From a virus: 39,415 bases of DNA. Below the pieces are notes generated by a model. It saw only the letters and a program-made list of their open reading frames with translations. It did no database searches and had not been told where the DNA came from. The translations under genes were made by a program, and so were the position numbers. Where the stretch lies: positions 1 through 39,415 of IMG/VR virus record IMGVR_UViG_3300037189_026801. One strand, written 5' to 3'. Within the stretch, counting starts at the first letter, position 1. Each line of letters begins with the position of its first letter. This document shows, in pieces, positions 7,595-21,226 of this stretch.

Positions 7595-8002
7595 ATGAAG
7601 TTCGTTATCAATGCCACGGCGCGCACTCAAGTAGAAAAAACCTGGGGGTACGAAGACTGGATCTGGAACGGACGTTATTGCGGAAAAAAGCTGTTTATCA
7701 ACAAAGGTAAGGAATGTAGCTTTCACTGTCATAAAGTTAAAGACGAAGTGATGTATTTAGAACGCGGGAAGGTGCTGCTAACTTACGGCTGGGACGACGA
7801 CATCCGCAACGCCTCCACGCTAACGTTAACGCCAGATATGGCCTTCCACATTCCGCCCGGCATGTTTCACCGATTTCATGGAATTGAAGAATCGCTGTTA
7901 ATCGAGTTTAGTACGCATCATTCTGACAAGGACGTAGTCAGGGCCGGCGACACACGCAAGGAAGCGGAAGATGACGAACAAGATAGCGACGAAAATAGTT
8001 AA
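7595..8002 (+). CDS. Cupin-domain protein, sugar-phosphate isomerase-like
   Basis: This 135-residue single-domain cupin is preceded by AAGGAG. Cupin motif 1 is present as HCHKVKDEVMYLERGKV (about 45-61, with the two His and the Glu as metal ligands). Motif 2 is PPGMFHRFHG. EKTWGYEDW near the N-terminus and STHHSDKDVVR near the end resemble type II mannose-6-phosphate isomerase/cupin proteins. It may isomerise a sugar or bind one for the neighbouring glycosyltransferases. The tail (residues about 119-135) is strongly acidic and overlaps the start of the next gene. The 87 bases before it are noncoding, with a possible weak -10 (TGTAAT at 7543-7548). Confidence 0.82.
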   Translation: MKFVINATARTQVEKTWGYEDWIWNGRYCGKKLFINKGKECSFHCHKVKDEVMYLERGKVLLTYGWDDDIRNASTLTLTPDMAFHIPPGMFHRFHGIEESLLIEFSTHHSDKDVVRAGDTRKEAEDDEQDSDENS

Positions 8003-10379
8003 GCAAAAATTAATTGCGCAAAAATCTATTAAATTGGCGCGCGGAACTGCTGAAACAATGCGGCAAGATGCGCTCAAATCTATATTGCCTTTTTCATTCG
8101 GCGATACGCCGCCACGCCCGGCTATATCGCCGACTGAATACGCAGATCGCTATTTACCAAACAAGCAAGTACCTGAGCTCAAAGCTGGTCCAGTTACTGC
8201 GGCGCGCAACAATTCTTCAAACAATTTATCCCCGAGCCCGATCTCTGCTTTTTTCGGTGGTCTTGGGCAAGGCGTGGGTAATCAATTTTCTGCAATTGGT
8301 AATTTTTCCAAAGGTACTATTCGCGGCGGCTTAGCCGGAATCGCTGCACAGTTTGTTAGGCCTTTTTCGCCCGACTACGCCGACGACCTCAACCGCCAGG
8401 CTTATGCGGGCGGCAAAGACATGTGGAACGCGCTAGGGCAGTACGTAGGCGTGAATGACGCCTGGGACCCGCGCACTGGTAATTATCGCGGCGCGCAAAA
8501 ACCAAATGCGCTAAACACGCACGACCAGTACACCGATAAAAAATACTTTAGCGGTAAAGATACGACAACAGATTTGCTGCGCGGGTTGTGGCGTGGCGCA
8601 ACAAATCTCGCCAATGAGGCTAGCGCGGCAGTTCCTCTCGCGGCCGTCGCGCCAGTGGCGGCGACTGCGGCTAGTAACGCGCCGGTAGTTCAGAGCGCAT
8701 TAAATGCAGTGCCACAAGCGGTTAAAACAGTTGCGTCTCCTGCAATAACATATGGCGCAGGTATTCCGGTAAATACAAAAATTAATGCTCCTTTATTTTT
8801 AGCGTCAAATTTAGGGCAGACAGGCGCGTTGGTGGCTGGAGTGCCCGGCGCAGAGTATTTGCCGGCTAATGCAGTAGACATAGCAACGCGAGAAACAATT
8901 GGACCGTGGGCGCCCGAAGTAATCGATCAGGTCCGAGGCCTTGGCGGCGCAGGGTTAACTGTAAATATGTTAAATCGCGGGTTGGTTAACCCACTGGATG
9001 AGTATTTGGGCGAGCAAAAAAGAGAGCAATTAACCGCAGAAGGCGGCGAAAATCTAATCCCAAATAAAAATATTCCGTCGGCACCGCCGGCCAATTCGGG
9101 CAGTAAGTCCCGACGACCGTTTGTGGATGACGATGGGCCCGCACAAAACTCGCAAACACCGATAAATGAACCCGATCTAGCCGATCCGTTTGGCGATAAG
9201 GAACAACCGGCGCCACCACCCGCTACAACAGCTGACAAATATCTTCCTGACGCAGATGATCAAACTAAAGCGCAGCTAAACGACGCTGAGGCGCAGCTGC
9301 AAGCTAGAGCTGCGGAGGATCCAACTGTCGGTGAGATGGCCGCAAATCCCGACGGAGAGCGCGCAAAACAATTTAGACAACAAGAGGCACAGCCGCGCCA
9401 TTTGGATGAGGCCTCGGCAGCTTACGCGGCAGAAAAACCACCGCCGACAAATCCACAAGACTGGGGCGGGTGGCTGCAAGACATGATGGGGCATGTGTCA
9501 ACTTCCTGGAACAATATGACACCAGAAGCGCAGTTAGCGTTTGGGTTGGGCGTACCGCTCGGTTTAGTCGGACTTCTTAGTGGAAATGTAGGCGGTTTCT
9601 TGCTCGGCGCTGTTGGGCTTGGAGTTGCCGGTGTAGCCGCGTCGCAGAGCGGTATGTTTGGCGACACCGCTCAAAATGCGACGACTCCCGCGGGCGAAAA
9701 ACCAGCCGAGCCAATTAAACCGCTTAATCCAGACGAGCAATTGTCTGTAGTTCGCGGTTTAACGTCTGCGGCTGATCCAATGGCTTATGTAGCGGCTAAT
9801 AAAGCGCAATTTGATCAAATAGCCAATTTATCAGACGACGAATTATCCGCCGTTGCGCAGCAGTTCGACCCGCAAGCCCGCAGCAGTCTAGTAGGAATTT
9901 TAAAGCAATTTAACGACAAAATTGACAAAGGGCTAAGCGATTTAGACAAGAATGGTTTTAAGCCGGGCCCAGCAGCTGATTTTGCTATTCGGGCCAGGGC
10001 GAGCCTTGGTTATGGCGAGGCACTGCCCAATGGAATTAGTTCTGCAGAATTACCGCAATTAAAATCAAAGGTGGAACGTATGTTGCAAATTTTAAACAGT
10101 AGCCAATCATCCCCGGCGAGTAACACAGGGGCGTACATTCAAAACGAGCTTATGCCGAAGATTGCGCGTTGCTGGAAAGGATATGAGCCAGTCCCAGGTA
10201 AAAAACCGTATAGCGAAGATTCTTGCCGCCCTGTCGGCAGCAAGAAAAAAAAGAAAATGAAAAAGAAGGCCGAAAATTATCTTAGTTTTTTAACGTCTGA
10301 TAAGCCGGCTATCCTCACTTTAATTCGAGGTTACTATGACAAACAAACCGGTTCGCAAAGCAAAGAAGTCCGCTCGTAG
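7971..10379 (+). CDS. Large Pro/Gly-rich virion-like protein with membrane-type segments
   Basis: This 802-residue protein overlaps the cupin gene by 32 bases, with a purine-rich ribosome site AAGGAAGCGGAAG. A basic N-terminal helix (about 1-35) leads to PFSFGD. The middle has Gly-rich hydrophobic stretches (about 95-120 and 210-300), a long Pro/Asp/Glu-rich disordered part (about 360-500), and a strong glycine-zipper membrane pair (about 519-563, LAFGLGVPLGLVGLLSG then GGFLLGAVGLGVAGVAA). The C-terminus is helical, with a lysine cluster (SKKKKKMKKK) and only two cysteines, both near the end. It lacks a recognised domain. The composition suits an internal or ejected virion protein. The last 44 bases overlap phoH. 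Confidence 0.75.
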   Translation: MTNKIATKIVKQKLIAQKSIKLARGTAETMRQDALKSILPFSFGDTPPRPAISPTEYADRYLPNKQVPELKAGPVTAARNNSSNNLSPSPISAFFGGLGQGVGNQFSAIGNFSKGTIRGGLAGIAAQFVRPFSPDYADDLNRQAYAGGKDMWNALGQYVGVNDAWDPRTGNYRGAQKPNALNTHDQYTDKKYFSGKDTTTDLLRGLWRGATNLANEASAAVPLAAVAPVAATAASNAPVVQSALNAVPQAVKTVASPAITYGAGIPVNTKINAPLFLASNLGQTGALVAGVPGAEYLPANAVDIATRETIGPWAPEVIDQVRGLGGAGLTVNMLNRGLVNPLDEYLGEQKREQLTAEGGENLIPNKNIPSAPPANSGSKSRRPFVDDDGPAQNSQTPINEPDLADPFGDKEQPAPPPATTADKYLPDADDQTKAQLNDAEAQLQARAAEDPTVGEMAANPDGERAKQFRQQEAQPRHLDEASAAYAAEKPPPTNPQDWGGWLQDMMGHVSTSWNNMTPEAQLAFGLGVPLGLVGLLSGNVGGFLLGAVGLGVAGVAASQSGMFGDTAQNATTPAGEKPAEPIKPLNPDEQLSVVRGLTSAADPMAYVAANKAQFDQIANLSDDELSAVAQQFDPQARSSLVGILKQFNDKIDKGLSDLDKNGFKPGPAADFAIRARASLGYGEALPNGISSAELPQLKSKVERMLQILNSSQSSPASNTGAYIQNELMPKIARCWKGYEPVPGKKPYSEDSCRPVGSKKKKKMKKKAENYLSFLTSDKPAILTLIRGYYDKQTGSQSKEVRS

Positions 10380-11061
10380 GGAAGTGCGTAAACAAATAAG
10401 AAAAGATAGGCGCGAACAAAACGTTTACGAACCGGTTGAAATAGCATTAAGAACAAAAGCGCAAGAAAAAGCCGTCGAGACAATGGCGGCAAATGACATA
10501 ACGTTTTTACTCGGCTCCGCGGGTTCGGGTAAGACGTTCTTGGCAATGGCGTACGCGATAAATTCTGTATTATCGCGCAAGACAGAGCAGATTGTGCTTA
10601 CGCGCCCAATCGTGGAAGCTGGCGAGAAGCTGGGCTATCTGCCGGGTACGTTCGGGGAGAAAGTTAATCCCTACATGCAGCCGCTTTACGACACCATGGA
10701 TTTGCTGCTAGGTAAACAAAGCGCCAAGCGTGAAATTATTAATAAAGCTGTTGTGCTCGCGCCTTTGTGCTACATGCGCGGCAGAACATTTAACAACGCT
10801 GTTTGCATTTTTGACGAAGCACAAAACGCTAATTATGCGCAGTTAAAATTATTTCTCAGTCGTTTCGGGCAAAATACTAAAGTTATAGTAACGGGAGACC
10901 CGGACCAAAGCGATCTTTACACGCGAGATAATCCAGAGTACGTTGCACTTCGTGATGTGACAACTAAATTGAAGGGCGTGAGCGGTATTGGTATTCACGC
11001 GTTCGCGCACTCTGACGTTGTACGCCATCCTTTGGTAGCGCAAATTCTAAAGCGATTGTAG
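10336..11061 (+). CDS. phoH: PhoH-like P-loop ATPase
   Basis: This 241-residue protein has Walker A GSAGSGKT (60-67), the PhoH-specific TRPIVEAGEKLGYLPG segment, Walker B CIFDEAQNA (about 158-166) and a sensor VTGDPDQSDL. The first about 30 residues are strongly basic and may bind nucleic acid. PhoH proteins are ATPases related to the helicase core. They are common in phages and bacteria, often tied to phosphate or RNA metabolism, but their phage role is not settled. The gene overlaps the end of the 802-residue protein by 44 bases, with a GAGG site nine bases before its ATG. Confidence 0.95.
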   Translation: MTNKPVRKAKKSARREVRKQIRKDRREQNVYEPVEIALRTKAQEKAVETMAANDITFLLGSAGSGKTFLAMAYAINSVLSRKTEQIVLTRPIVEAGEKLGYLPGTFGEKVNPYMQPLYDTMDLLLGKQSAKREIINKAVVLAPLCYMRGRTFNNAVCIFDEAQNANYAQLKLFLSRFGQNTKVIVTGDPDQSDLYTRDNPEYVALRDVTTKLKGVSGIGIHAFAHSDVVRHPLVAQILKRL

Positions 11062-11097: not shown

Positions 11098-11541
11098 ATG
11101 CTTATCTCGGATATGGTGGCGCGACTTAACGATGACTTGAAAAACGAGTGGAAGCACCTGAAATTTTACGCGCATCACGCCAGCGCCATAACCGGCTTGC
11201 ACGCGCACGAGTACAAGGAATTTCTAACTGAGCAGGCCAACAGCGAACTTCAGCATGTCATCCAGTTTGGTGATTTGATTATCGGGCTAGGCGCTACACC
11301 AACAACTGAGTCGAATGATTTTCCTAAGCTCACTGTCGCGAAAAATATTCTTGCGTACGCGATTGAAATAGAAAATGAAGTAGTGCAGAACTACTCGCAA
11401 CGCATCGCGGAGCTTGACCAAATTTTTGATACGCCTGAAACGATAGCGGATAAAAAGTGGATTGAAATTTTTCTCGAGAAGCAAATCGAAGACAGCCGAC
11501 AGGACCTCGATCATCTACGTCAAATTATTAAAGGAGAATAA
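11098..11541 (+). CDS. Ferritin-like diiron protein (bacterioferritin-like)
   Basis: This 147-residue all-helical protein, preceded by AAGGAA, fits the four-helix ferritin-like fold. Candidate iron ligands are Glu17 in helix A, Glu50 and His53 (ELQH, an ExxH), Glu90/Glu94 in helix C and Glu127/Glu131 in EKQIED. The final ExxH of classic bacterioferritin is not exact, so it may instead be a plain ferritin-like or Dps-like protein. The haem-binding Met is not evident. It may store iron or protect DNA from oxidants during infection, or contribute to the virion. Its stop codon abuts, and its last base takes part in, the closing stem of the RNA element at 11541. Confidence 0.8.
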   Translation: MLISDMVARLNDDLKNEWKHLKFYAHHASAITGLHAHEYKEFLTEQANSELQHVIQFGDLIIGLGATPTTESNDFPKLTVAKNILAYAIEIENEVVQNYSQRIAELDQIFDTPETIADKKWIEIFLEKQIEDSRQDLDHLRQIIKGE

Positions 11542-11752
11542 CAGGTTAGACGCAAATACGGCGACTGACTCGGTTTCTCCTTTCGGCTGAGTTGGTTTGA
11601 AGTTTGCGTGGCACAATGTGCCGCACGCTACCGGATAGTCAGCGTGCCGAGAATTAATCGCTGGGTTTTCAACGGAATCCGGCCGCGTCCTTCGCCCCTA
11701 CGACCGAGCATAAGTGGAATACGAGCGATTCTGCTGTTAATTCTTAACCTGT
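11541..11752 (+). ncRNA. Multibranched structured RNA element (class unknown)
   Basis: The 220 bases between two genes fold by hand into a compact junction with almost no unpaired bases between stems. The closing stem is 11541-11548 with 11745-11752 (8 bp, ACAGGTTA/TAACCTGT). Then come 11550-11557 with 11602-11609 (8 bp), enclosing 11564-11573 with 11587-11596 (10 bp, three G-T); hairpin 11610-11614 with 11618-11622; hairpin 11623-11629 with 11641-11647 (7 bp); and 11650-11657 with 11737-11744 (8 bp), continued by 11658-11661 with 11725-11728 after an 8-base bulge. No ORF covers it. It may be a processed noncoding RNA or a leader for the gene at 11762, which has no ribosome site. I recognise no known class. 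Confidence 0.7.
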
Positions 11753-11761
11753 TTTAGTTAT

Positions 11762-13273
11762 ATGGCGGATACTAAATACATTTCTTTCCCGCACGGATTG
11801 GGCGATTGCGCTAATTTTATTCTTGTTTTACGTATGTATCGCGCCTTGGGTTTTGATTTGGGCGCGACCTGCGAAAAAAATAAACAGCCATTTTTTACAG
11901 CTGCAAAAATTCCAACTGTTAGCCCCGGCGTAGTTACCGCACAAGAGCATCCGTGGTGGGAGCCGGCCGGGTTATCGCATGTAACTGCCGACAATGTTTT
12001 GGCGCAAAACAAAGTGCGGCAAAATTTTAAGGGTTCGCCGTTACCGCCAGTGCAGTTTACTAAAGAAGATCTTTGGCAGAAACTCGCAGCGCAGCGTGAC
12101 CCAGATATGTTTAATTTGTATCGGGATCGCGTGGCGGCGACCATAGATGAACTGCCCAAACCATTGTTGCTTGTTCACGCGCACGGCAATACATCTGCGG
12201 GACAAAAAGATCTTCCAGCAAATTTTGCTGCTGACGTTTCTTCGTTGTTCCTATCAGAGACGCGCGGGTCGGTTATTTTTTTGGATTGGGACAATCGCGT
12301 TAGTTGGGTGCATTCTTCTCGCGCACGCCACATTACATATCACTATGGCGGAGCGCTCTCGACGCCAGAATCTTTAATGGGTTTAATGGCCTCGGCCGAT
12401 ATTTTACTCGGAATTGATAGCGGTCCGTTGCACTTAGCCGGGTTAATAGATTTGCCTACGGTGGGCGTTTGGTCTGATCACCACCCGCTGCGTTATGCGG
12501 TTAGTCGCGAAAACGCATTACACATTTTAACTAAGCCAAATATCGCAAACATGTGGGCTGCGCCAGATTTTAACGCAGTAGATCAAATTAAATTAACGCC
12601 GCAGTATATTTTTGACGCGTTAAAACTTATGTTATCTCCGCGTGAGTTTGGATTATCGCGCGGGGCTGATGTGCAATTGCAACTAATGTTGAAAAAGTGT
12701 TACGGCGGTATAGTTAAAAACACTAAACATGTTCCAAGCGTCGTAGTAGATCGGCACATCAGTTTTTCTTTAATTTTTGATTACTTGCTGCAGCTGAACC
12801 GCCCGCCGAAAATTGTAGAAACCGGATGTATTCGCGCCGATAACGACTGGGCTGGCGCTGGGTATTCTACATTTTTATTTGGTTTGTTTGCGCACAGACT
12901 TGGCGGCAACTTATTGAGTATCGACCTGTCGTCCGCGAGCGTTAATTACGCGGCTCGAGTTTGTGCAACGTTGCCAAGTGTAACCATGTTATGCTCCGAT
13001 TCTGTAAAAGCTATATCTGAATTATCCGGCCCGGTCGATTTATTTTATCTCGACAGTATGGATGCCAACATCCCCGGCCACGAAGAACACGGATTAAACG
13101 AAGCTAAACAGAGCGTACAAAAAATTTCAAATGACGGATTAATCGTGTTTGATGATACCGTTAAGGATGGCAGCAGATTTCTGGGGAAGGGCGCGCTGGC
13201 CGTGCCGTGGCTATTAGACAATGGTTGGGAAATTATTTTTATGGGACACCAGATTGTATTAAAACGAGCTTAA
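11762..13273 (+). CDS. GT9-like glycosyltransferase fused to a class I methyltransferase
   Basis: This 503-residue protein has two domains. Residues about 1-295 match the GT9/ADP-heptose transferase type: PHGLGDCANF at the N-terminus (the GxGD acceptor-side motif), and DSGPLHLAGLIDLPTVGVW (219-237), the family signature for nucleotide-sugar binding. Residues about 330-503 look like a SAM-dependent methyltransferase (IVETGCIRA motif I near 351, LLSIDLS near 385, DLFYLDS, IVFDDT), of the Methyltransf_24 type. Together they could add and then methylate a sugar. There is no ribosome site before the ATG. The structured RNA ends nine bases upstream, so translation may depend on RNA structure. The next GT9-like gene starts two bases after its stop. 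Confidence 0.82.
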   Translation: MADTKYISFPHGLGDCANFILVLRMYRALGFDLGATCEKNKQPFFTAAKIPTVSPGVVTAQEHPWWEPAGLSHVTADNVLAQNKVRQNFKGSPLPPVQFTKEDLWQKLAAQRDPDMFNLYRDRVAATIDELPKPLLLVHAHGNTSAGQKDLPANFAADVSSLFLSETRGSVIFLDWDNRVSWVHSSRARHITYHYGGALSTPESLMGLMASADILLGIDSGPLHLAGLIDLPTVGVWSDHHPLRYAVSRENALHILTKPNIANMWAAPDFNAVDQIKLTPQYIFDALKLMLSPREFGLSRGADVQLQLMLKKCYGGIVKNTKHVPSVVVDRHISFSLIFDYLLQLNRPPKIVETGCIRADNDWAGAGYSTFLFGLFAHRLGGNLLSIDLSSASVNYAARVCATLPSVTMLCSDSVKAISELSGPVDLFYLDSMDANIPGHEEHGLNEAKQSVQKISNDGLIVFDDTVKDGSRFLGKGALAVPWLLDNGWEIIFMGHQIVLKRA

Positions 13274-14553: not shown

Positions 14554-15020
14554 CGCCATATCGCCAGACAACGATCGCGCTCGATTTTGATCGCACGTTT
14601 ACGAGCGACATCGAATTCTGGCGGTTGTTTGTGCGGCAGGCAGTTACGCGCGGCCACAAAGTTTATTGTGTTACAGGCCGCACCGAGTGCCCGAGAAACC
14701 GGGTAGAAGTTGCTAGCGTTTTTGGCGCTCCTACGTTTGCATTATTAAGTGGTTGCATTTTTTGCAATCACTCCTCTAAACGCGCCAAAGTTGATGAATT
14801 AAAAATTAACATAGACATTTGGATTGATGATATGCCGGAGGGTGTAGGCGCGCCTGATCCCGCGGTGTTCAAACAGCTTGAGTCAAAATTTCCGGTTTGT
14901 GAAACTCTTCCCGTTTTTACGCCAAAAGCAGTAGATCCAAACATAATTTGGCAACCCACAATTCCAACAATTATTACCACAGCGCGCGAAAATTGTGTAA
15001 AATTTAATTCGCAAAACTAG
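14550..15020 (+). CDS. HAD-superfamily phosphatase-like protein
   Basis: This 156-residue protein has HAD motif I as [10 protein letters not shown] (residues 11-20, DxDxT with the nucleophile Asp). It also has a motif II-like CVTGRTE (about 40-46), a Lys in [10 protein letters not shown], and the acidic motif [10 protein letters not shown]. There is no sizable cap domain, as in small phage HAD proteins. The substrate is likely a phosphorylated sugar, nucleotide or nucleic acid end, and sugar metabolism would fit the surrounding glycosyltransferases. It starts in an ATGA overlap. The stop codon is part of a terminator-like hairpin. Confidence 0.82.
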
Positions 15021-15035
15021 ATGGATCTAGTTTTT
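15013..15035 (+). terminator. Terminator-like hairpin with T-run
   Basis: A perfect 9-bp stem (AAAACTAGA at 15013-15021 with TCTAGTTTT at 15026-15034) with a TGGA loop is followed by a T-run. The A-tract on the other side would let it work in both directions. The stem is AT-rich, so strength is uncertain. It includes the stop codon of the HAD gene and separates it from the homing-endonuclease-like gene. Confidence 0.5.
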
Positions 15036-15057
15036 CCGCACTGTATGGAAGCAGTGT

Positions 15058-15756
15058 ATGAAAAAGAAGTGGCACTATCTGTATGTGATTTTCTACCCAG
15101 CACTTAGTTTTAAGTGTTATTACGGGTCAAGAATTTCGCATTTACATCCCGACGAAGACATCGATTATTTCGGGTCTTCGGTTACGTTTGCGCACTACAA
15201 CGACACGACTCACCCTGAATACCAGCCCGACGCGTTAAAAGTAATTATCTGGGCGCAGCATCTAATCGCGTCAAAAAAGAACGGGTTGGCGCTAGCGGAG
15301 CTTGAGGCCGGCATGATTAAACAAGCTCTTGCGGAAAGCGGCGCAGAACTGTGTTTAAATAGAAATTATGCTGGCCGTATCGTAATGACCCCAGCCGAGC
15401 AAAAAAACGCTTGGGAAAAATCAGCGCAAAATGGCAGTGGTTTCTTGAATATGTCAAAAAGTAAACACGCAAAATGGGCGCTCATGGGCGGTTTAAAATC
15501 GTTCGAGCAGGGCAAAGGCATTCACGGAATGTCTGAAGAAAAATTGCAAGAGGCGCGCGCAAAAGGTAATAAAGTTATTAGCGAAAAATACGCCAAAGTT
15601 TATACATTTAAATCGCCAGCAGGCGAGTTAATAACTTTTAAAAATTTGCGCGCATTTTGCCGAGAAAATAATTTGCAAGCTAGCCACATGCGTAGTTTGA
15701 ATATCGGAAAAATTCGCTCGCACAAGGGCTGGAGACGACCAGAAGAAGATGCATGA
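15058..15756 (+). CDS. Homing-endonuclease-like protein (GIY-YIG type) with DNA-binding tail
   Basis: This 232-residue protein has an N-terminal block HYLYVIFYP...YYGSRISHLHPDEDIDYFGSS, which has the form of the diverged GIY-YIG nuclease domains common in free-standing phage endonuclease genes. A C-terminal block (about 180-228: FKSPAGELITFKNLRAFC, then GKIRSHKGWRRP) resembles the NUMOD/helix-turn-helix DNA-binding repeats of such enzymes. It sits behind a terminator-like hairpin, with a small hairpin (CACTG/CAGTG) at its start and no clear ribosome site. This fits an independently mobile insert. No interrupted gene or intron is seen next to it. Exact catalytic residues are not certain. Confidence 0.7.
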   Translation: MKKKWHYLYVIFYPALSFKCYYGSRISHLHPDEDIDYFGSSVTFAHYNDTTHPEYQPDALKVIIWAQHLIASKKNGLALAELEAGMIKQALAESGAELCLNRNYAGRIVMTPAEQKNAWEKSAQNGSGFLNMSKSKHAKWALMGGLKSFEQGKGIHGMSEEKLQEARAKGNKVISEKYAKVYTFKSPAGELITFKNLRAFCRENNLQASHMRSLNIGKIRSHKGWRRPEEDA

Positions 15757-16078
15757 GTCTATTTATTTAATTTTGTTGTGCGGTTGTTTTTTATTCGGCT
15801 ATTTGCTTGGTCGCGTGGACTTGTTAGTTTGTCGCTCTAGTCAAAAAGACGCCGCTCCAACCCCGCAAAACTTTTTTACGCGAGTCGGGCAGTCTGAAAA
15901 TAAAACCGCAAACACGCTAAAGACCGCAGCAGCGGATATAGACACTCGTGTATTTGTGGCACCACTGACCACGTCTGATATGGTGAAAAATTCCGATGTG
16001 ACCATTGGCAAAACAAACGTTGTGGATGATGATATCAACAAGTCTGTTTCCAAACTGGCGCAACTTAAGGGTAAATAA
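15749..16078 (+). CDS. Membrane-anchored small protein
   Basis: This 109-residue protein overlaps the end of the preceding gene, with an AGAAGAAG purine run before its ATG. One N-terminal transmembrane helix (about 4-22, LILLCGCFLFGYLLG) precedes a short basic/Cys stretch and a hydrophilic, Thr/Asp/Lys-rich tail of about 80 residues that should face one side of the membrane. The Cys near the helix does not form a convincing lipobox. Unknown function. Its position right before the actin-like ATPase invites the idea of a membrane partner, but nothing in the sequence proves this. Confidence 0.65.
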   Translation: MHESIYLILLCGCFLFGYLLGRVDLLVCRSSQKDAAPTPQNFFTRVGQSENKTANTLKTAAADIDTRVFVAPLTTSDMVKNSDVTIGKTNVVDDDINKSVSKLAQLKGK

Positions 16079-16080
16079 GC

Positions 16081-16176
16081 GTGAATCGCATTGTATCGCT
16101 ATTTGGCGTAGTTTGGATTAACTGGCCGCGTGATTACTGGCTTAACGCATTTAAAAAAGGAACAAAACATGGCTAA
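16081..16176 (+). CDS. Possible 31-residue peptide
   Basis: A GTG two bases after the previous stop opens a 31-codon frame (MNRIVSLFGVVWINWPRDYW...) rich in aromatic and hydrophobic residues. It ends by overlapping the start of the actin-like gene by eight bases. The chain of overlaps and the amphipathic composition make it plausible. There is no clear ribosome site and no homology can be judged. It may only be a leader region. Confidence 0.25.
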   Translation: MNRIVSLFGVVWINWPRDYWLNAFKKGTKHG

Positions 16177-17170
16177 AGGTTTAGACGTTGGTACTTCTTT
16201 TATCGTGCTCGCGCAGGACACTGAAAAAGGCGTGGCGTACAAAGACTTTCGTGACGCATTTTATGTAATTAAACCTACTACGCCGGTCGCTACAAAGATG
16301 ATCGAAAAAGGCCTGCAGGGGCGGACATTCGTCAAAGACGCCGACGGCAGCTTTATACTTCTCGGGCAGGACGCAATTGAAAAAGCGGTAGAGCGTAATG
16401 ACTCGGCCAAGCGTCCGATGTATCGCGGCGTGGTTTCGCCGAAGGAGCGCGACGCTAAGCGTGTTTTAGCGTACATACTTAAAGAGGTAGCGGGCATTGC
16501 CGCAACCCCGGGGGAGCAATTGGTTTTTTGCGTGCCCGCGCAGCCCGTCGACCAGCCCGACGAAGACTTTGATGTCGGTTATCACGAAGATGTAATAAAG
16601 ATGGTTCTTGCGGAGGTTGGCTATAGCGCGCGCGCTATTAATGAGGCTGAAGCGCTGTGCTATTCCGAATTAGAAAATGACGATTACACCGGCGTTGCTC
16701 TTTCGTGCGGCGCTGGCATGGTGAACTGCTGCGTCATGCTAAACGGCGAGCCAACTGTGATGTTTAGCACCACAAAGTCCGGCGATTGGGTAGATCGCAT
16801 GGCCGCCGTTGCCACAGCTGAACCTGACTCAGTGGTACAGGCAGAAAAAGAGCACGGAGATTTCACAATCGGCGAGCCGACAGACAATCCAATTTTGGCG
16901 GCCGTTTCTAGCTATTATGAGCGGCTAATTGATTACACCACTAAGCAGTTAGCTAGCGCAATGGCCGGGCATAAGCTGCTGCCCAAGTTTAAAGAGCCGC
17001 TGCCGGTCGTAGTGGCTGGCGGCACGAGTCGCGCAAAGGGTTTTATTGAACTATTTTCGGCCAAACTGGCAGAGAATGAATTTCCGTTGCCAGTTGCCGT
17101 AGTACGACACGCTAGCGATCCGCTTCATGCTGTTGCGCGCGGCTGTTTAGTGGCCGCAAAAATTTTGTGA
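16169..17170 (+). CDS. Actin-like ATPase (ParM/Alp type)
   Basis: This 333-residue protein starts at the ATG at 16169 with an AAAGGA site. A start at 16130 would add 13 unlikely residues. Actin/Hsp70-fold motifs are present in order: phosphate-1 KGLDVGTS (3-10), connect-1 region NEAEALCYSEL, phosphate-2 ALSCGAGMVNCCV (about 181-193), and the adenosine motif VVAGGTSRAKGF (about 290-301). The length fits ParM-like proteins. Such filaments move plasmid or phage DNA, so the protein may position the phage genome or factory in the host. No ParR-like adaptor is obvious, though the membrane-anchored protein upstream is adjacent. The gene ends in a GTGA overlap with a GT25 gene. Confidence 0.85.
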   Translation: MAKGLDVGTSFIVLAQDTEKGVAYKDFRDAFYVIKPTTPVATKMIEKGLQGRTFVKDADGSFILLGQDAIEKAVERNDSAKRPMYRGVVSPKERDAKRVLAYILKEVAGIAATPGEQLVFCVPAQPVDQPDEDFDVGYHEDVIKMVLAEVGYSARAINEAEALCYSELENDDYTGVALSCGAGMVNCCVMLNGEPTVMFSTTKSGDWVDRMAAVATAEPDSVVQAEKEHGDFTIGEPTDNPILAAVSSYYERLIDYTTKQLASAMAGHKLLPKFKEPLPVVVAGGTSRAKGFIELFSAKLAENEFPLPVAVVRHASDPLHAVARGCLVAAKIL

Positions 17171-17886
17171 ATAATGTGTGTACCGTACCCGAAAATTTAC
17201 TCGATCTTCCGTGTTTTGTGATCAGCCTGGACAGGCGCGCCGACCGGCGCGAGGAGGCGCTGCGTCGGGTGTCCGAAGCTGGATTTGAAACCGTTACAAC
17301 ATTTCCAGCGATAGACGGCCGCAATTTTGCGCAGTTGCGCCAGGCGTGGCGACAATTTCCGCCCGAGCTTTTCGATAAGGCGTTGCCGACATTTAAAACA
17401 AAACGCGGCACACAGGGCTGTTATCTATCGCATGTTATTTTGTGGAAAAAAATTTCACATGAAGAAATTCCAGCAGCAATAATATTCGAAGACGACGTTG
17501 TGTTTCATGAAAATTGGCACGAGTTATATCCAACTTACTGGGCGCAGACCCCCAAAAATTTTGACATTGTGTACATGGGGGCAGACGTTTTGGATTTTAA
17601 ATCCAAGCCTGGAGTAATTTGCTGCCCAGTCTTGTGCAACCACGCCACGATTCTTTCCTGTGGCGGCGCTACCAAGTTATACGACTACATAACAAGTCAA
17701 CGCCCGGCGCCTTTAGATTTTGTAATATATGCGCTACAAAAACGGTTAGTGGCTTCGGACAATTCAGAAACTCTTCGGTGGTATAACTGGGTCGCGCAGA
17801 CTGATATGGACTTGCCTGAAATAAATACAAATCGGCACGTCGGGCTAGTTTATCAAGACAGAAAATTTAAAAGCGATAATTACTAG
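17167..17886 (+). CDS. GT25-family glycosyltransferase (LPS-type)
   Basis: This 239-residue protein starts with GTG overlapping the actin-like gene's stop. It carries the GT25 signature set: FVISLDRRADRREEALRR at the N-terminus (about 17-34), the RGTQGCYLSHVILWKKI segment (about 80-96) and the metal/donor motif AIIFEDDVVF (about 105-114), plus a VYMGAD strand. GT25 enzymes transfer galactose or related sugars in lipopolysaccharide and collagen glycosylation. No membrane segment is present. Together with the GT9-like genes and the propeller protein next door it suggests that the phage modifies a surface polysaccharide. Confidence 0.88.
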   Translation: MNNVCTVPENLLDLPCFVISLDRRADRREEALRRVSEAGFETVTTFPAIDGRNFAQLRQAWRQFPPELFDKALPTFKTKRGTQGCYLSHVILWKKISHEEIPAAIIFEDDVVFHENWHELYPTYWAQTPKNFDIVYMGADVLDFKSKPGVICCPVLCNHATILSCGGATKLYDYITSQRPAPLDFVIYALQKRLVASDNSETLRWYNWVAQTDMDLPEINTNRHVGLVYQDRKFKSDNY

Positions 17887-17895
17887 CAATAGTTT

Positions 17896-18885
17896 ATGTT
17901 TAACATACTTGCCGATATTCCATCGCCGCCCTTGAGCTGGGCAAGAATGTTCGCCGGAGATATTTATGAGCTGGCGCTTCCCTGTCCTGACAAGAAATGG
18001 GTTTGGACAAATCCATCTGTAATAAAAGCACTCGACGGAGATAATTATTTGTGCGCTGTTCGGCTTACAGTGTCTCCGTGGCACGGCGGGTATGCTTCTG
18101 AATTAGCTTTAGTTAAGACTAGTTTGTCAGGAATTCCGTCATCTATTAAACAATTGCGCCCACCAAAAGGCGATCGCGAACTAATTGACGACGCGCCAAT
18201 TGTGCATCACGGCGCGCACGATTGTCGTATTTTTAAAGTAGCTGGACGTTTATTTGGTACCGCTACTTTTTGGGATAACACAAAAGAATGCGTGCAAGAA
18301 GCTGGTTACACGCTTGGCAGAATAGGGTTAATAGAGATAGATGTTTCGGGAGTTAAACCGGTTTGGACTGCAACTAAAATGCTGCCAAGTCTATACGGCG
18401 CCGTCGAAAAAAATTGGATGCCGGTCGAGGATGAATTTTCTTGGTTATATTTACCAGCACAGAATATTTTTGCGGAATACGTCGCGGCCACACAAAAATT
18501 TAAATTTGCGTCAGTCGGTAGAACCCACGAAGAGCTAGAGTACGCACGCGGCGGGTCACAACTGGTAAAAATTGGCGCGAATTATTTGCTGGGTGTAGTG
18601 CATTACGTAACCGAGCCGGCTGTAACTAAACCCACATTCTTTCAGCGTTTGCGTTACGCGCATCGATTTATGCTGTACGATGCCGCAACGAAAGATTTGC
18701 TGGGTTTTTCTCCCTATTTTTACTTTATTAGCCCGAACGGTATTGAATTTGCCGCCGGCCTGGCGACGACACACGACGGCAACAGTGTAGTGGTTTCTTT
18801 CGGTTATAGGGACACATCTGCCTGGTTTGCTACGGCAACAATTCAGTCAGTTCTTTCTCAGATTCATTTTATTGTGCGTCACTAG
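17896..18885 (+). CDS. Five-bladed beta-propeller, GH130/GH43-like
   Basis: This 329-residue protein looks like a GH130/GH43-type propeller. Regularly spaced blade strands can be seen, with family-like segments HGAHDCRIFKVAGRLFGTAT (about 109-128), EKNWMPVEDE (about 170-179), RGGSQLVKIG and YAHRFMLYD, and a late IEFAAGL. GH130 enzymes act on beta-mannosides by phosphorolysis, and related non-catalytic propellers accompany glycosyltransferases. The usual catalytic Asp is not confidently placed. It could modify or bind the glycan made by the genes around it. It begins nine bases after the GT25 stop with no strong ribosome site. Confidence 0.7.
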   Translation: MFNILADIPSPPLSWARMFAGDIYELALPCPDKKWVWTNPSVIKALDGDNYLCAVRLTVSPWHGGYASELALVKTSLSGIPSSIKQLRPPKGDRELIDDAPIVHHGAHDCRIFKVAGRLFGTATFWDNTKECVQEAGYTLGRIGLIEIDVSGVKPVWTATKMLPSLYGAVEKNWMPVEDEFSWLYLPAQNIFAEYVAATQKFKFASVGRTHEELEYARGGSQLVKIGANYLLGVVHYVTEPAVTKPTFFQRLRYAHRFMLYDAATKDLLGFSPYFYFISPNGIEFAAGLATTHDGNSVVVSFGYRDTSAWFATATIQSVLSQIHFIVRH

Positions 18886-18949
18886 AATTGACTAAAGTGC
18901 CACCCGGCGCGACAATGCTTTTGTTGTTCTTTTACAATTTGCTTTTGCC

Positions 18950-18971
18950 GCCGACTGTATCTTGTTAAAAT
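18950..18971 (+). promoter_or_regulatory. Weak promoter-like -10 ahead of the second RNA element
   Basis: TAAAAT (18966-18971) matches a -10 at five of six positions. A TTGCCG (18945-18950) lies 15 bases upstream, a short spacer. Transcription would start close to 18978, at the start of the RNA's closing stem. The 90 bases before the RNA (18886-18974) are otherwise T-rich and noncoding. Found by eye; spacer and -35 are imperfect. Confidence 0.25.
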
Positions 18972-18974
18972 TGA

Positions 18975-19201
18975 ATTTGTTGTAAGTTAGTCGTGGTGGT
19001 CGACTGGTTAGGATGCTACTTCGCGCGACAGGGATGTTGCGCGGGGTAGTCGGAGTCCGTGGTCAGGCTACGGCCGCGCACACGGCAGGTGGAGCAATGA
19101 ATGCCGCACGAGGTTAATTTATACCTTAGAAAGTCATTGCGTTGCCCTGGTTCGCCGGGGTTAGGACCTGCGGGAGGGGATCGCAGGGGCTTACAACAAA
19201 T
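18975..19201 (+). ncRNA. Second multibranched structured RNA (class unknown)
   Basis: This noncoding stretch folds by hand around a perfect 12-bp closing stem, 18975-18986 with 19190-19201. Inside are 18987-18993 with 19001-19007 (7 bp); 19016-19029 with 19036-19049 (14 bp with a few G-T); 19057-19061 with 19081-19085; 19094-19100 with 19134-19140 (GCAATGA/TCATTGC), enclosing a small hairpin; 19145-19150 with 19155-19160, capped by a TTCG tetraloop; and 19167-19172 with 19182-19187. GGTTAGGA occurs twice (19006-19013 and 19159-19166) in junction strands. The layout resembles a stable free RNA more than a small leader hairpin. It is not a tRNA or an obvious tmRNA. I recognise no class. Confidence 0.7.
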
Positions 19202-19225
19202 CATTAATTTTAAATGAGGCGGCAA

Positions 19226-19579
19226 ATGATCGACGAATATTTTCATTCGTTGTCGGTGTTAGCTAGCGCTTTTGGCGTATCTGCGTTTGCGGGCTTAGCC
19301 ACTTTGTTGCGGTTTGCCCACAAATTTTCGCGGTTATCTGTGATTAGTGCTATGTTGAACGCCGGCTTTTTGGGGCTAGCAATTGCCCTTCTTTGGTACC
19401 AAAACTACCGAAATGCTGAAAATGTTTATGGATTGCTCGGTATTTGCGTATTAGCCGGTATGGGTGGCTCTACGCTCACAGATTTGTTAATATCATTATT
19501 GTCTGGAGCCGGCATACAGGTCACAATTACCCATTCACGCCAAGATGACGGAGAAGACGATGACGCTAAAAACACGTAA
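19226..19579 (+). CDS. Membrane protein, holin-like
   Basis: The protein has 117 residues from the ATG at 19226, which has GAGGCGG just upstream. An ATG at 19214 would add four residues but has no ribosome site. Three hydrophobic helices are predicted by eye (about 8-26, 37-57 and 69-92, the last including LAGMGGSTLTDLLISLL), followed by a beta-like ITITHS stretch and an acidic DDGEDDD tail. Size and topology fit a class I holin or similar small phage membrane protein. No endolysin is adjacent, so this remains tentative. The small gene at 19560 overlaps its end. Confidence 0.65.
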   Translation: MIDEYFHSLSVLASAFGVSAFAGLATLLRFAHKFSRLSVISAMLNAGFLGLAIALLWYQNYRNAENVYGLLGICVLAGMGGSTLTDLLISLLSGAGIQVTITHSRQDDGEDDDAKNT

Positions 19580-19810: not shown

Positions 19811-21226
19811 ATGGATGGCATATCACTTTTAAATCCGTCAACCCCAGACTTTCAGCCGCTGCTTTATTCGCGGGGTAACGCGGTAGGGTGGCTAGCGCGC
19901 AGCGACAAAACGGCCGCAGCGCCATACAACATGGCTGGCCGGCTATATCTAGCCAAAAGCGGCTGGCTTCTTCTGTCCGTACCGAATGCGTTTGTTCGTG
20001 GCGTATTTGACGCGCTAACGGCCCCGGGGGCAGAACTACCCACGGCCGGGCTTATGAACGTGCCCAACGTAGACGGCGATGTGCTTAATGCGCATATCTC
20101 CGTTATGACCGCTGCCGAGGTTGAAGCTATCGGCGCCGACAAGATTAACGAGCGCGGGCACATGTTTTATTACGCGCTAGGCCCGGTAGAAGAAATTCCC
20201 GTACACAATGTAGACGGCGTTAGCAAGATTTGGGCTGTGCAGGTTAAGAGCCCTGCCCTCGCCGCCTTACGCAAAAGCTACGGCTTATCGCCGTACATTA
20301 AAGATCATCAGTTTCACATAACTGTTGCCGCCCGCCGCAAAAAAGTCCTAGCCAATAACGACGTCAGCAAGTTTGACACTGCAACCGGCCGCGGTGAGCT
20401 AAAAGCCGCCGCCGCCGATAAAACAACATACGACTGCTGTTGTGCTGGTCCCTGTACATGCCCGCCAACTTGCATCTGCAAAAAGAGCGGATATTGTGGG
20501 CATAAAAAAGAAGCGGAAGACATTCTTACAGGCGGCGCAGCAGACAACAAACCAGATTCGGCGTTTCCAAAAAAGGAATTACAGAAAGGCAAGAAGCATG
20601 AGCGAGAACACACAAATAATGATCAAGTCGCCGCAGAAATTGCCAAGGATCATCTGCAAGAAGAACCCAACTACTACAAAAAGCACGCCGAAGAAAAAGA
20701 AGTAAATAAAGAACCTGCAATCATTTTTCAGCTACGTAAAGCCAAAGAGCATTCCGACGCGAAACGGTATAAACATAAAAATGAAATACTGCGCAAATTA
20801 ATGCACCGCGCCCCTGAAGACTGGTTTGTCGACGATCCCGATAAATATCACATGGGAATTACGCACGCTCCAACTAATTTCCGTTTTCATGCTGATCCGC
20901 GCATTATTCCGGTAGGCGTGCCCGTCCAGAAGGCTGCGGCTAAAAATCCTTACGCCGGGCACCTGTTCGATTTCAAAGAGCCGCTTGTTGTTCCGCCTAA
21001 TTCAAACATGTGGCAGAAAACTCTGGCGCATTTACAGCGCGTTGTAGATAAAGGTAATCGTACAGCGGAAATGCAGCAGCGTACGCCCGGGCTTCTGGCA
21101 GCTATGGATCCGGCATACAAGCACCAAATGAACATGTCGATTGCGCGAGGCGTTTGGCCGCAGCCTGATTTACTTACACAGCTTATTCAGCGCCATGGGA
21201 GCGGCGTACTCGCGTCGTTACAGTAA
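19811..21226 (+). CDS. 2H phosphoesterase-like protein with Cys cluster and DUF5661-like region
   Basis: This 471-residue multidomain protein is preceded by GGGAG. Residues about 1-175 contain the paired motifs HIS (95-97) and HIT (169-171), as in 2H (HxS/T...HxS/T) phosphoesterases that act on 2',3'-cyclic RNA ends or related substrates. A cluster of eight cysteines (209-229, CCCAGPCTCPPTCIC...C) likely binds metal. Residues about 262-296 (HEREHTNNDQVAAEIAKDHL...PNYYKKH) closely match DUF5661, a short phage family of unknown function. A third part (about 330-471) carries APEDWFVDDP and THAPTNFRFH and looks structured. The combination suggests RNA repair or processing, possibly packaged. Its stop overlaps the next ATG by one base. 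Confidence 0.75.
   Translation: MDGISLLNPSTPDFQPLLYSRGNAVGWLARSDKTAAAPYNMAGRLYLAKSGWLLLSVPNAFVRGVFDALTAPGAELPTAGLMNVPNVDGDVLNAHISVMTAAEVEAIGADKINERGHMFYYALGPVEEIPVHNVDGVSKIWAVQVKSPALAALRKSYGLSPYIKDHQFHITVAARRKKVLANNDVSKFDTATGRGELKAAAADKTTYDCCCAGPCTCPPTCICKKSGYCGHKKEAEDILTGGAADNKPDSAFPKKELQKGKKHEREHTNNDQVAAEIAKDHLQEEPNYYKKHAEEKEVNKEPAIIFQLRKAKEHSDAKRYKHKNEILRKLMHRAPEDWFVDDPDKYHMGITHAPTNFRFHADPRIIPVGVPVQKAAAKNPYAGHLFDFKEPLVVPPNSNMWQKTLAHLQRVVDKGNRTAEMQQRTPGLLAAMDPAYKHQMNMSIARGVWPQPDLLTQLIQRHGSGVLASLQ

Follow-up and report, generated by a model that had tools for sequence, protein, structure and literature searches.

Between a ferritin-like gene and a GT9/methyltransferase gene, the window analyzed here (the whole stretch of 39,415 nucleotides, positions 1 to 39,415 of IMG/VR virus record IMGVR_UViG_3300037189_026801) carries a gap that an earlier note, made from the letters alone, described as a compact multibranched RNA. 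According to that note, the RNA might control translation of the next gene, or might be a free RNA cut from the transcript. The locus raises two questions: whether a conserved RNA is encoded here and, if so, what kind of RNA it is.

Materials and methods

IMG/VR was searched with the upstream ferritin-like protein, which yielded 27 loci, and four pattern scans on the invariant core of the RNA enlarged the set to approximately 27 distinct sequences. A covariance model, R1, represents the 133-nt core (P4–P6). Covariation was ranked by a G-test on all column pairs with average-product correction, against a null in which the tree's own substitutions were placed at random sites.

Results

Fold of the intergenic RNA

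The RNA has a minimum free energy of −78.4 kcal/mol, compared with −63.5 kcal/mol (sd 4.3) for shuffled sequences (z −3.4), and 0 of 200 dinucleotide shuffles, a control named in the earlier note, folded as well; the fold of the opposite strand is weaker (z −2.0). The architecture put forward in the earlier note, with five stems round one junction, at most two unpaired bases between stems, and an 8-bp closing stem uniting the ends of the gap exactly, is borne out (Table 1). The linkers between P1, P2, P3, P4, and P5 at the junction measure 1, 0, 0, 2, and 0 bases, and the closing stem is a perfect helix; the RNA begins with the final base of the upstream stop codon, and its 3' end lies nine bases before the ATG at 11762. 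R1 scores 120 bits at 11623–11752 of the window, whose sequence is itself part of the model.

Table 1. Coordinates of the RNA, its parts, and neighboring genes (window positions unless a locus is named)
Feature	Position	Strand	Basis and remarks
Whole structured RNA	11541..11752	+	Fold; 212 nt, homologs 227–282 nt
P1 closing stem, 5' strand ACAGGUUA	11541..11548	+	Fold; perfect 8-bp helix
P1 closing stem, 3' strand UAACCUGU	11745..11752	+	Fold; pairs with 11541–11548
P2, long variable two-part stem-loop	11550..11609	+	Fold; outer P2 compensated in the family, including L117
P2 outer arms	11550–11557 / 11602–11609	+	Fold
P2 inner arms	11563–11575 / 11585–11597	+	Fold
P3 hairpin GGCAC AAU GUGCC	11610..11622	+	Fold; longer in relatives
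P4 hairpin, 7 bp (11623–11629 / 11641–11647)	11623..11647	+	Covariation; loop bears pseudoknot strand
Pseudoknot 5' strand CCGGAU, in P4 loop	11631..11636	+	Permutation test; covariation ranking
P5, 5' strand	11649..11657	+	Covariation
Conserved junction motif GGGUU	11663..11667	+	Invariant columns; possible GGGU/GCCC pairing
Pseudoknot 3' strand AUCCGG, after GGGUU	11677..11682	+	Permutation test; covariation ranking
Conserved junction core UUCGCCCCUACG...CGAGCAUAA	11691..11713	+	Invariant columns; served as search motif
P6 hairpin, 7-nt loop ACGAGCG (11721–11727)	11713..11735	+	Covariation; loop core CGAGCG invariant
P5, 3' strand	11737..11745	+	Covariation
phoH-like gene, constant upstream neighbor	10336..11061	+	PF02562, E 9.7e-70
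Ferritin-like gene, usual but movable neighbor	11098..11541	+	PF00210, E 8.9e-12
GT9/methyltransferase gene, downstream, inconstant partner	11762..13273	+	PF01075 and PF13578
tRNA-Ser(UGA) in or beside the RNA slot	L006 4665–4753; L008 4451–4539; L017 4451–4539		
tRNA-Ser(UGA) side by side with the RNA	L022 4719–4806; L024 4720–4807		

Homologs and their distribution

A related RNA follows the ferritin-like gene in 11 of the 27 loci first recovered, and all of the roughly 27 distinct homologs come from IMG/VR phage contigs. A single copy is present in each of the first 20 member records that were searched in full. Members score 70–160 bits with R1, including L028 and ten matches in loci outside model building, compared with at most 23 bits on 50 loci of chance matches and controls. 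Among 84,980 bacterial and archaeal genomes, the core-motif scan yielded no member, only coding sequence or unrelated repeats; these pattern matches were set aside as chance, the best rejected candidate reaching 23 bits against the members' range. Viral candidates dismissed as chance by inspection and the covariance model were L035, L036, L081–L085, L089, L090, L092, L093, L095, L096, L098–L100, L115, and L121. BLASTN of the members against 50,697 cultured phage records returned nothing, or chance matches of 19–24 nt, and R1 found nothing in Salmonella phage Arash or Vibrio phage D69, the nearest cultured RNA-polymerase relatives.

Covariation of the helices

Covariation in homologs, which the earlier note had named as the test that could refute its claim, is abundant in P1–P6 and in a pseudoknot that the note had missed. 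In an alignment of 17 sequences (A3), the pairs of P4, P5, and P6 are formed in 98.5% of cells, compared with 16–51% when partners are slid by 1–3 columns. Two-sided changes occur in 15 of these 24 core pairs, including 7 of 9 in P5 (where 100% of cells are paired) and 5 of 8 in P6. P1, P2, and P3 are likewise backed by compensatory changes in clade alignments: most pairs of P3 show them, and the P1 consensus GCRGG/CCYGC carries A-U instead of G-C in L039 and the window. One clade (including L032, L034, L028, and L116–L126) has an additional hairpin, P5a, within the 5' strand of P5. The locus L117, held out of the model, retains the pseudoknot and each of the six helices, and its P4 is wholly different in sequence yet paired (GUACUUU/AAAGUAC). 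The top five column pairs in the ranking all fall in helices (two in P5, one in P4, one in P6, and one in the pseudoknot). The compensatory changes stand above a phylogeny-aware null and mark a conserved, structured noncoding RNA. The ranked pairs comprise 26 G-U and 4 A-C cells; since an A-C cell on one strand reads as G-U on the opposite one, the RNA is the plus strand.

In the pseudoknot, the P4 loop pairs with a strand downstream of GGGUU, and this pairing is kept through differing sequences: UCGGA/UCCGA in L002, CUUGGA/UCCAAG in L041, UCAGACA/UGUCUGA in L028, UUGA/UCAA in L086, and CUUGA/UCAAG in L117. Its pair 11/61 ranks fifth of all column pairs in the phylogeny-aware ranking, in an alignment whose loop register was set by hand and from which one L028 base was omitted, slightly favoring the pseudoknot. 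A permutation test independent of both choices gave the same picture: when partners were permuted among 15 members, the observed pairing was reached in 0 of 5000 trials. The five stems and the junction of the fold originally described thus stand, but its inner P5 hairpin gives way to the pseudoknot. This hairpin of the thermodynamic fold, GGGUUUUC...GGAAUCC, probably does not represent the functional pairing, since its UCC pairs with the P4 loop across the family. RNAalifold proposes pairings of GGGU with GCCC and of UGCU with AGCA, which hardly vary and hence give no covariation signal; a candidate pairing between CUCCC, a motif in P2, and GGGAG at P1 shows no clean covariation.

The invariant bases lie in unpaired stretches within P5 (GGGUU, UUCGCCCCUACG, and CGAGCANAA) and in the CGAGCG of the P6 loop. 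The helices vary freely while this unpaired core stays invariant; the UUCGCCCCUACG...CGAGCAUAA segment is the probable functional center. Neither complementarity nor identity to E. coli rRNA and tRNA exceeded that of shuffled controls.

Comparison with catalogued RNAs

At gathering score, Rfam 15 recovers only a tRNA-Asn in the window, elsewhere than the RNA, and ARAGORN and Rfam place no tRNA or tmRNA at the RNA, in accord with the statement that no tRNA or known class explains it. The best scores in permissive Rfam scans are all sub-threshold (14.1 bits for the window, 9.3 for L002, and 13.7 for L041), and the sole weak match in the window, JUMPstart (RF01707) on the opposite strand, was rejected as chance (14 bits, where the gathering score is 35; E 3.8). 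The covariance models of ROOL, GOLLD, and the Rfam ribozyme families likewise found no match in the window, L002, or L041. The manA and wcaG motifs are also catalogued in Rfam, and the window RNA matched neither. No description of the family was found in the open-access literature, which was the scope searched. Within that scope, this RNA family is new: no catalogued family has its sequence or architecture. The claim of novelty is made for the family and not for the kind of mechanism.

Phage lineage and genomic setting

The phage of which the window is a fragment encodes multisubunit RNA polymerase proteins, and the same polymerase protein occurs in 17 of 17 RNA-bearing records searched, at 71–83% identity over nearly the full length. 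The RNA therefore marks one phage lineage, with contigs of up to 205 kb and phages of roughly 200 kb. Two oddities of the polymerase gene were observed along the way. In G008, the record of L032, the match (53178–58517, minus strand) is interrupted near residue 430: its two pieces stand about 1 kb apart, and a single open frame of 1805 aa spans both; the insertion is intein-like. In G001 (14973–19388, minus strand), the match contains one in-frame TGA, either a sequencing error or recoding.

Wherever the sequence suffices (L086, L087, and L097 are too short), phoH lies 0.07–2.1 kb upstream of the RNA on the same strand. The ferritin-like gene is mostly directly upstream, but is downstream in L094, L028, and L032, 1.4 kb off in G010, and absent in G009. 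In the window the RNA is followed by GT9, but in L002 and L003 by a 112-aa ORF, in L044 and L087 by a deaminase-like ORF, in L022 and L024 by tRNA-Ser, and in L094 and L028 by the ferritin-like gene; GT9 homologs in L022, L024, L028, L002, and L003 lie 0.5–3.3 kb from the RNA, separated from it by other genes. The RNA is missing from two records of the lineage, G021 and G032, where tRNA-Ser fills its slot; either it is dispensable or it may lie outside those fragments. In other loci, tRNA-Asn lies several kilobases from the RNA, and several loci have no tRNA.

At the 5' flank, GGAG occurs about 5–15 nt before P1 in many members (e.g., window 11532–11536, L088, L091, L116, L119, and L120), and an ATG overlaps the 5' strand of P1 (AUGCGGGAG) in many members, in a reading frame that is not conserved. 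Elsewhere in the window, an 802-aa ORF directly before phoH (7971–10379) has no PHROG or Pfam match and is partly alignable in several relatives (29–32% over 250–310 aa); positions 16130–17170 match the Pfam actin-like family Volactin (E 2.9e-62), here in a phage genome; and a 471-aa ORF (19811–21226) combines a 2H phosphoesterase domain (2H-SAK) with DUF5661.

Discussion

What kind of RNA this is must be judged from its conservation and its setting. We favor, with some reservation, a free-standing and probably trans-acting phage RNA that is cut from an operon transcript, in line with the second of the two possibilities originally raised. The invariant core, the mobility of the RNA relative to its neighbors, and its single copy together argue for a free RNA working through that core; its persistence while neighboring genes change points the same way, as does a slot shared with tRNA-Ser genes, a typical site of stable phage RNAs. 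We infer excision because, in the window and most relatives, there is no room for a promoter of its own after the ferritin-like stop codon. The RNA would be transcribed as part of the phoH operon, with P1 defining the ends at which nucleases trim it from the polycistronic transcript; in L022 and L024, where tRNA-Ser starts 7 nt later, RNase P cleavage of the tRNA would make the 3' end. In the folded product, the P1–P5 junction and the P4-loop pseudoknot would hold the largely unpaired conserved core and the P6 loop CGAGCG, and the core (GGGUU, UUCGCCCCUACG, CGAGCANAA) would most likely act in trans by binding a protein or RNA of the phage or the host. Three points count against this account: no promoter, terminator, or processing signal was identified for the RNA; the same-lineage fragments G021 and G032 are without it; and it abuts same-strand coding genes, an arrangement that would be equally fitting for an mRNA element.

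Such an element, belonging to the phoH/ferritin operon at a 3' or intercistronic position and stabilizing or differentially cutting the transcript without any functional free product, is an unlikely but conceivable alternative. It would account for an RNA that is always on the same strand, within about 2 kb downstream of phoH, and usually directly after the ferritin-like stop codon. However, the RNA precedes the ferritin-like gene in L094, L028, and L032, G009 has no such gene, and dozens of invariant unpaired bases with a covarying pseudoknot exceed the needs of a stability hairpin. Control of the following gene, whether riboswitch-like or translational, appears improbable. The sugar-gene setting is reminiscent of the wcaG and manA motifs of cyanophages, and the distance from P1 to the next ATG is about 9–25 nt in the window and several relatives, with no Shine-Dalgarno sequence. 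The close ATG without a ribosome site was thus correctly noted, but it is not special: by a simple motif test, 24 of the 40 listed ORFs of the window lack a Shine-Dalgarno sequence, so its absence before GT9 is ordinary and the main argument for translational control of GT9 falls away. Further, the downstream gene families vary, GT9 homologs elsewhere do not follow the RNA, tRNA-Ser comes after it in L022 and L024, and some downstream genes have ribosome sites of their own (L002, L003, L094, L028). The consistent downstream gene or pathway expected of a riboswitch or cis-regulatory leader is not found among these loci, and the suggestion of control over the next gene's translation is not upheld.

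A self-cleaving or otherwise catalytic RNA that processes its own transcript would suit the pseudoknotted core and its many invariant unpaired bases, which have the usual look of a ribozyme or aptamer; we regard this as decidedly improbable, as no Rfam ribozyme family matched and the ends have no adjoining conserved sequence that would mark a cleavage site. Still harder to sustain is a role as leader peptide or short protein-coding gene. Many members have GGAG and an ATG ahead of the RNA, and a frame of about 90 codons is open through it in L116, L119, and L120, but L124 interrupts this frame, L126 has it shifted, and the window clade has no ATG. Across the family, a frame that is open in some members is broken in others, and members with open frames differ from one another evenly at the three codon positions (e.g., 32/21/28 and 30/30/32); on these grounds coding was rejected, in agreement with the original reading of the gap as free of ORFs. 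A chance fold of a GC-rich spacer has next to no probability left. Folding energies are unexceptional in some homologs (z −0.2 in L039, −0.5 in L086, and −0.7 in L032), but every helix covaries, as does the pseudoknot, and held-out members retain all helices, by which this explanation is already refuted.

Known systems offer partial parallels to a free-standing RNA. ROOL and GOLLD are phage RNAs of unknown function, often found near tRNA genes, and resemble the present family in being phage-encoded, pseudoknotted, and multibranched, with no known protein-coding role (PMC12286853). They are, however, far longer (many GOLLD RNAs exceed 800 nt) and form nanocages, whereas the window family measures 212–282 nt has a different fold, and has no large tRNA island. 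With regard to nearby tRNA genes, the loci of the family are mixed, tRNA-Ser adjoining the RNA only in L022 and L024. The manA and wcaG motifs are structured cyanophage RNAs, some of them near sugar or exopolysaccharide genes (PMC2864571). They are regarded as cis-regulators before particular gene classes, whereas the gene after the window family varies. In the leaders of T4 genes 25 and 38, a hairpin lies between the ribosome site and the start codon. Several members of the present family are similar in having GGAG just before P1 and ATG just after it, but unlike those leaders, the upstream GGAG is absent in L086, L087, L094, L101, and L028, and other members have a normal site after the RNA.

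A further reading, rather unlikely but worth stating, is that the family forms a class of its own among phage RNAs, with a functional core that is catalytic or made of RNA alone: it might, for example, be a ribozyme of a new kind, or might capture or mimic a component of host translation or transcription on behalf of the RNA polymerase that the phage encodes. Few complex structured phage RNAs have an unknown function, and all of them have been hard to place. The window RNA is small enough for chemical or in-line probing, or for cryo-EM with a partner, and has a sharply defined invariant core; it belongs to a lineage that brings its own RNA polymerase.
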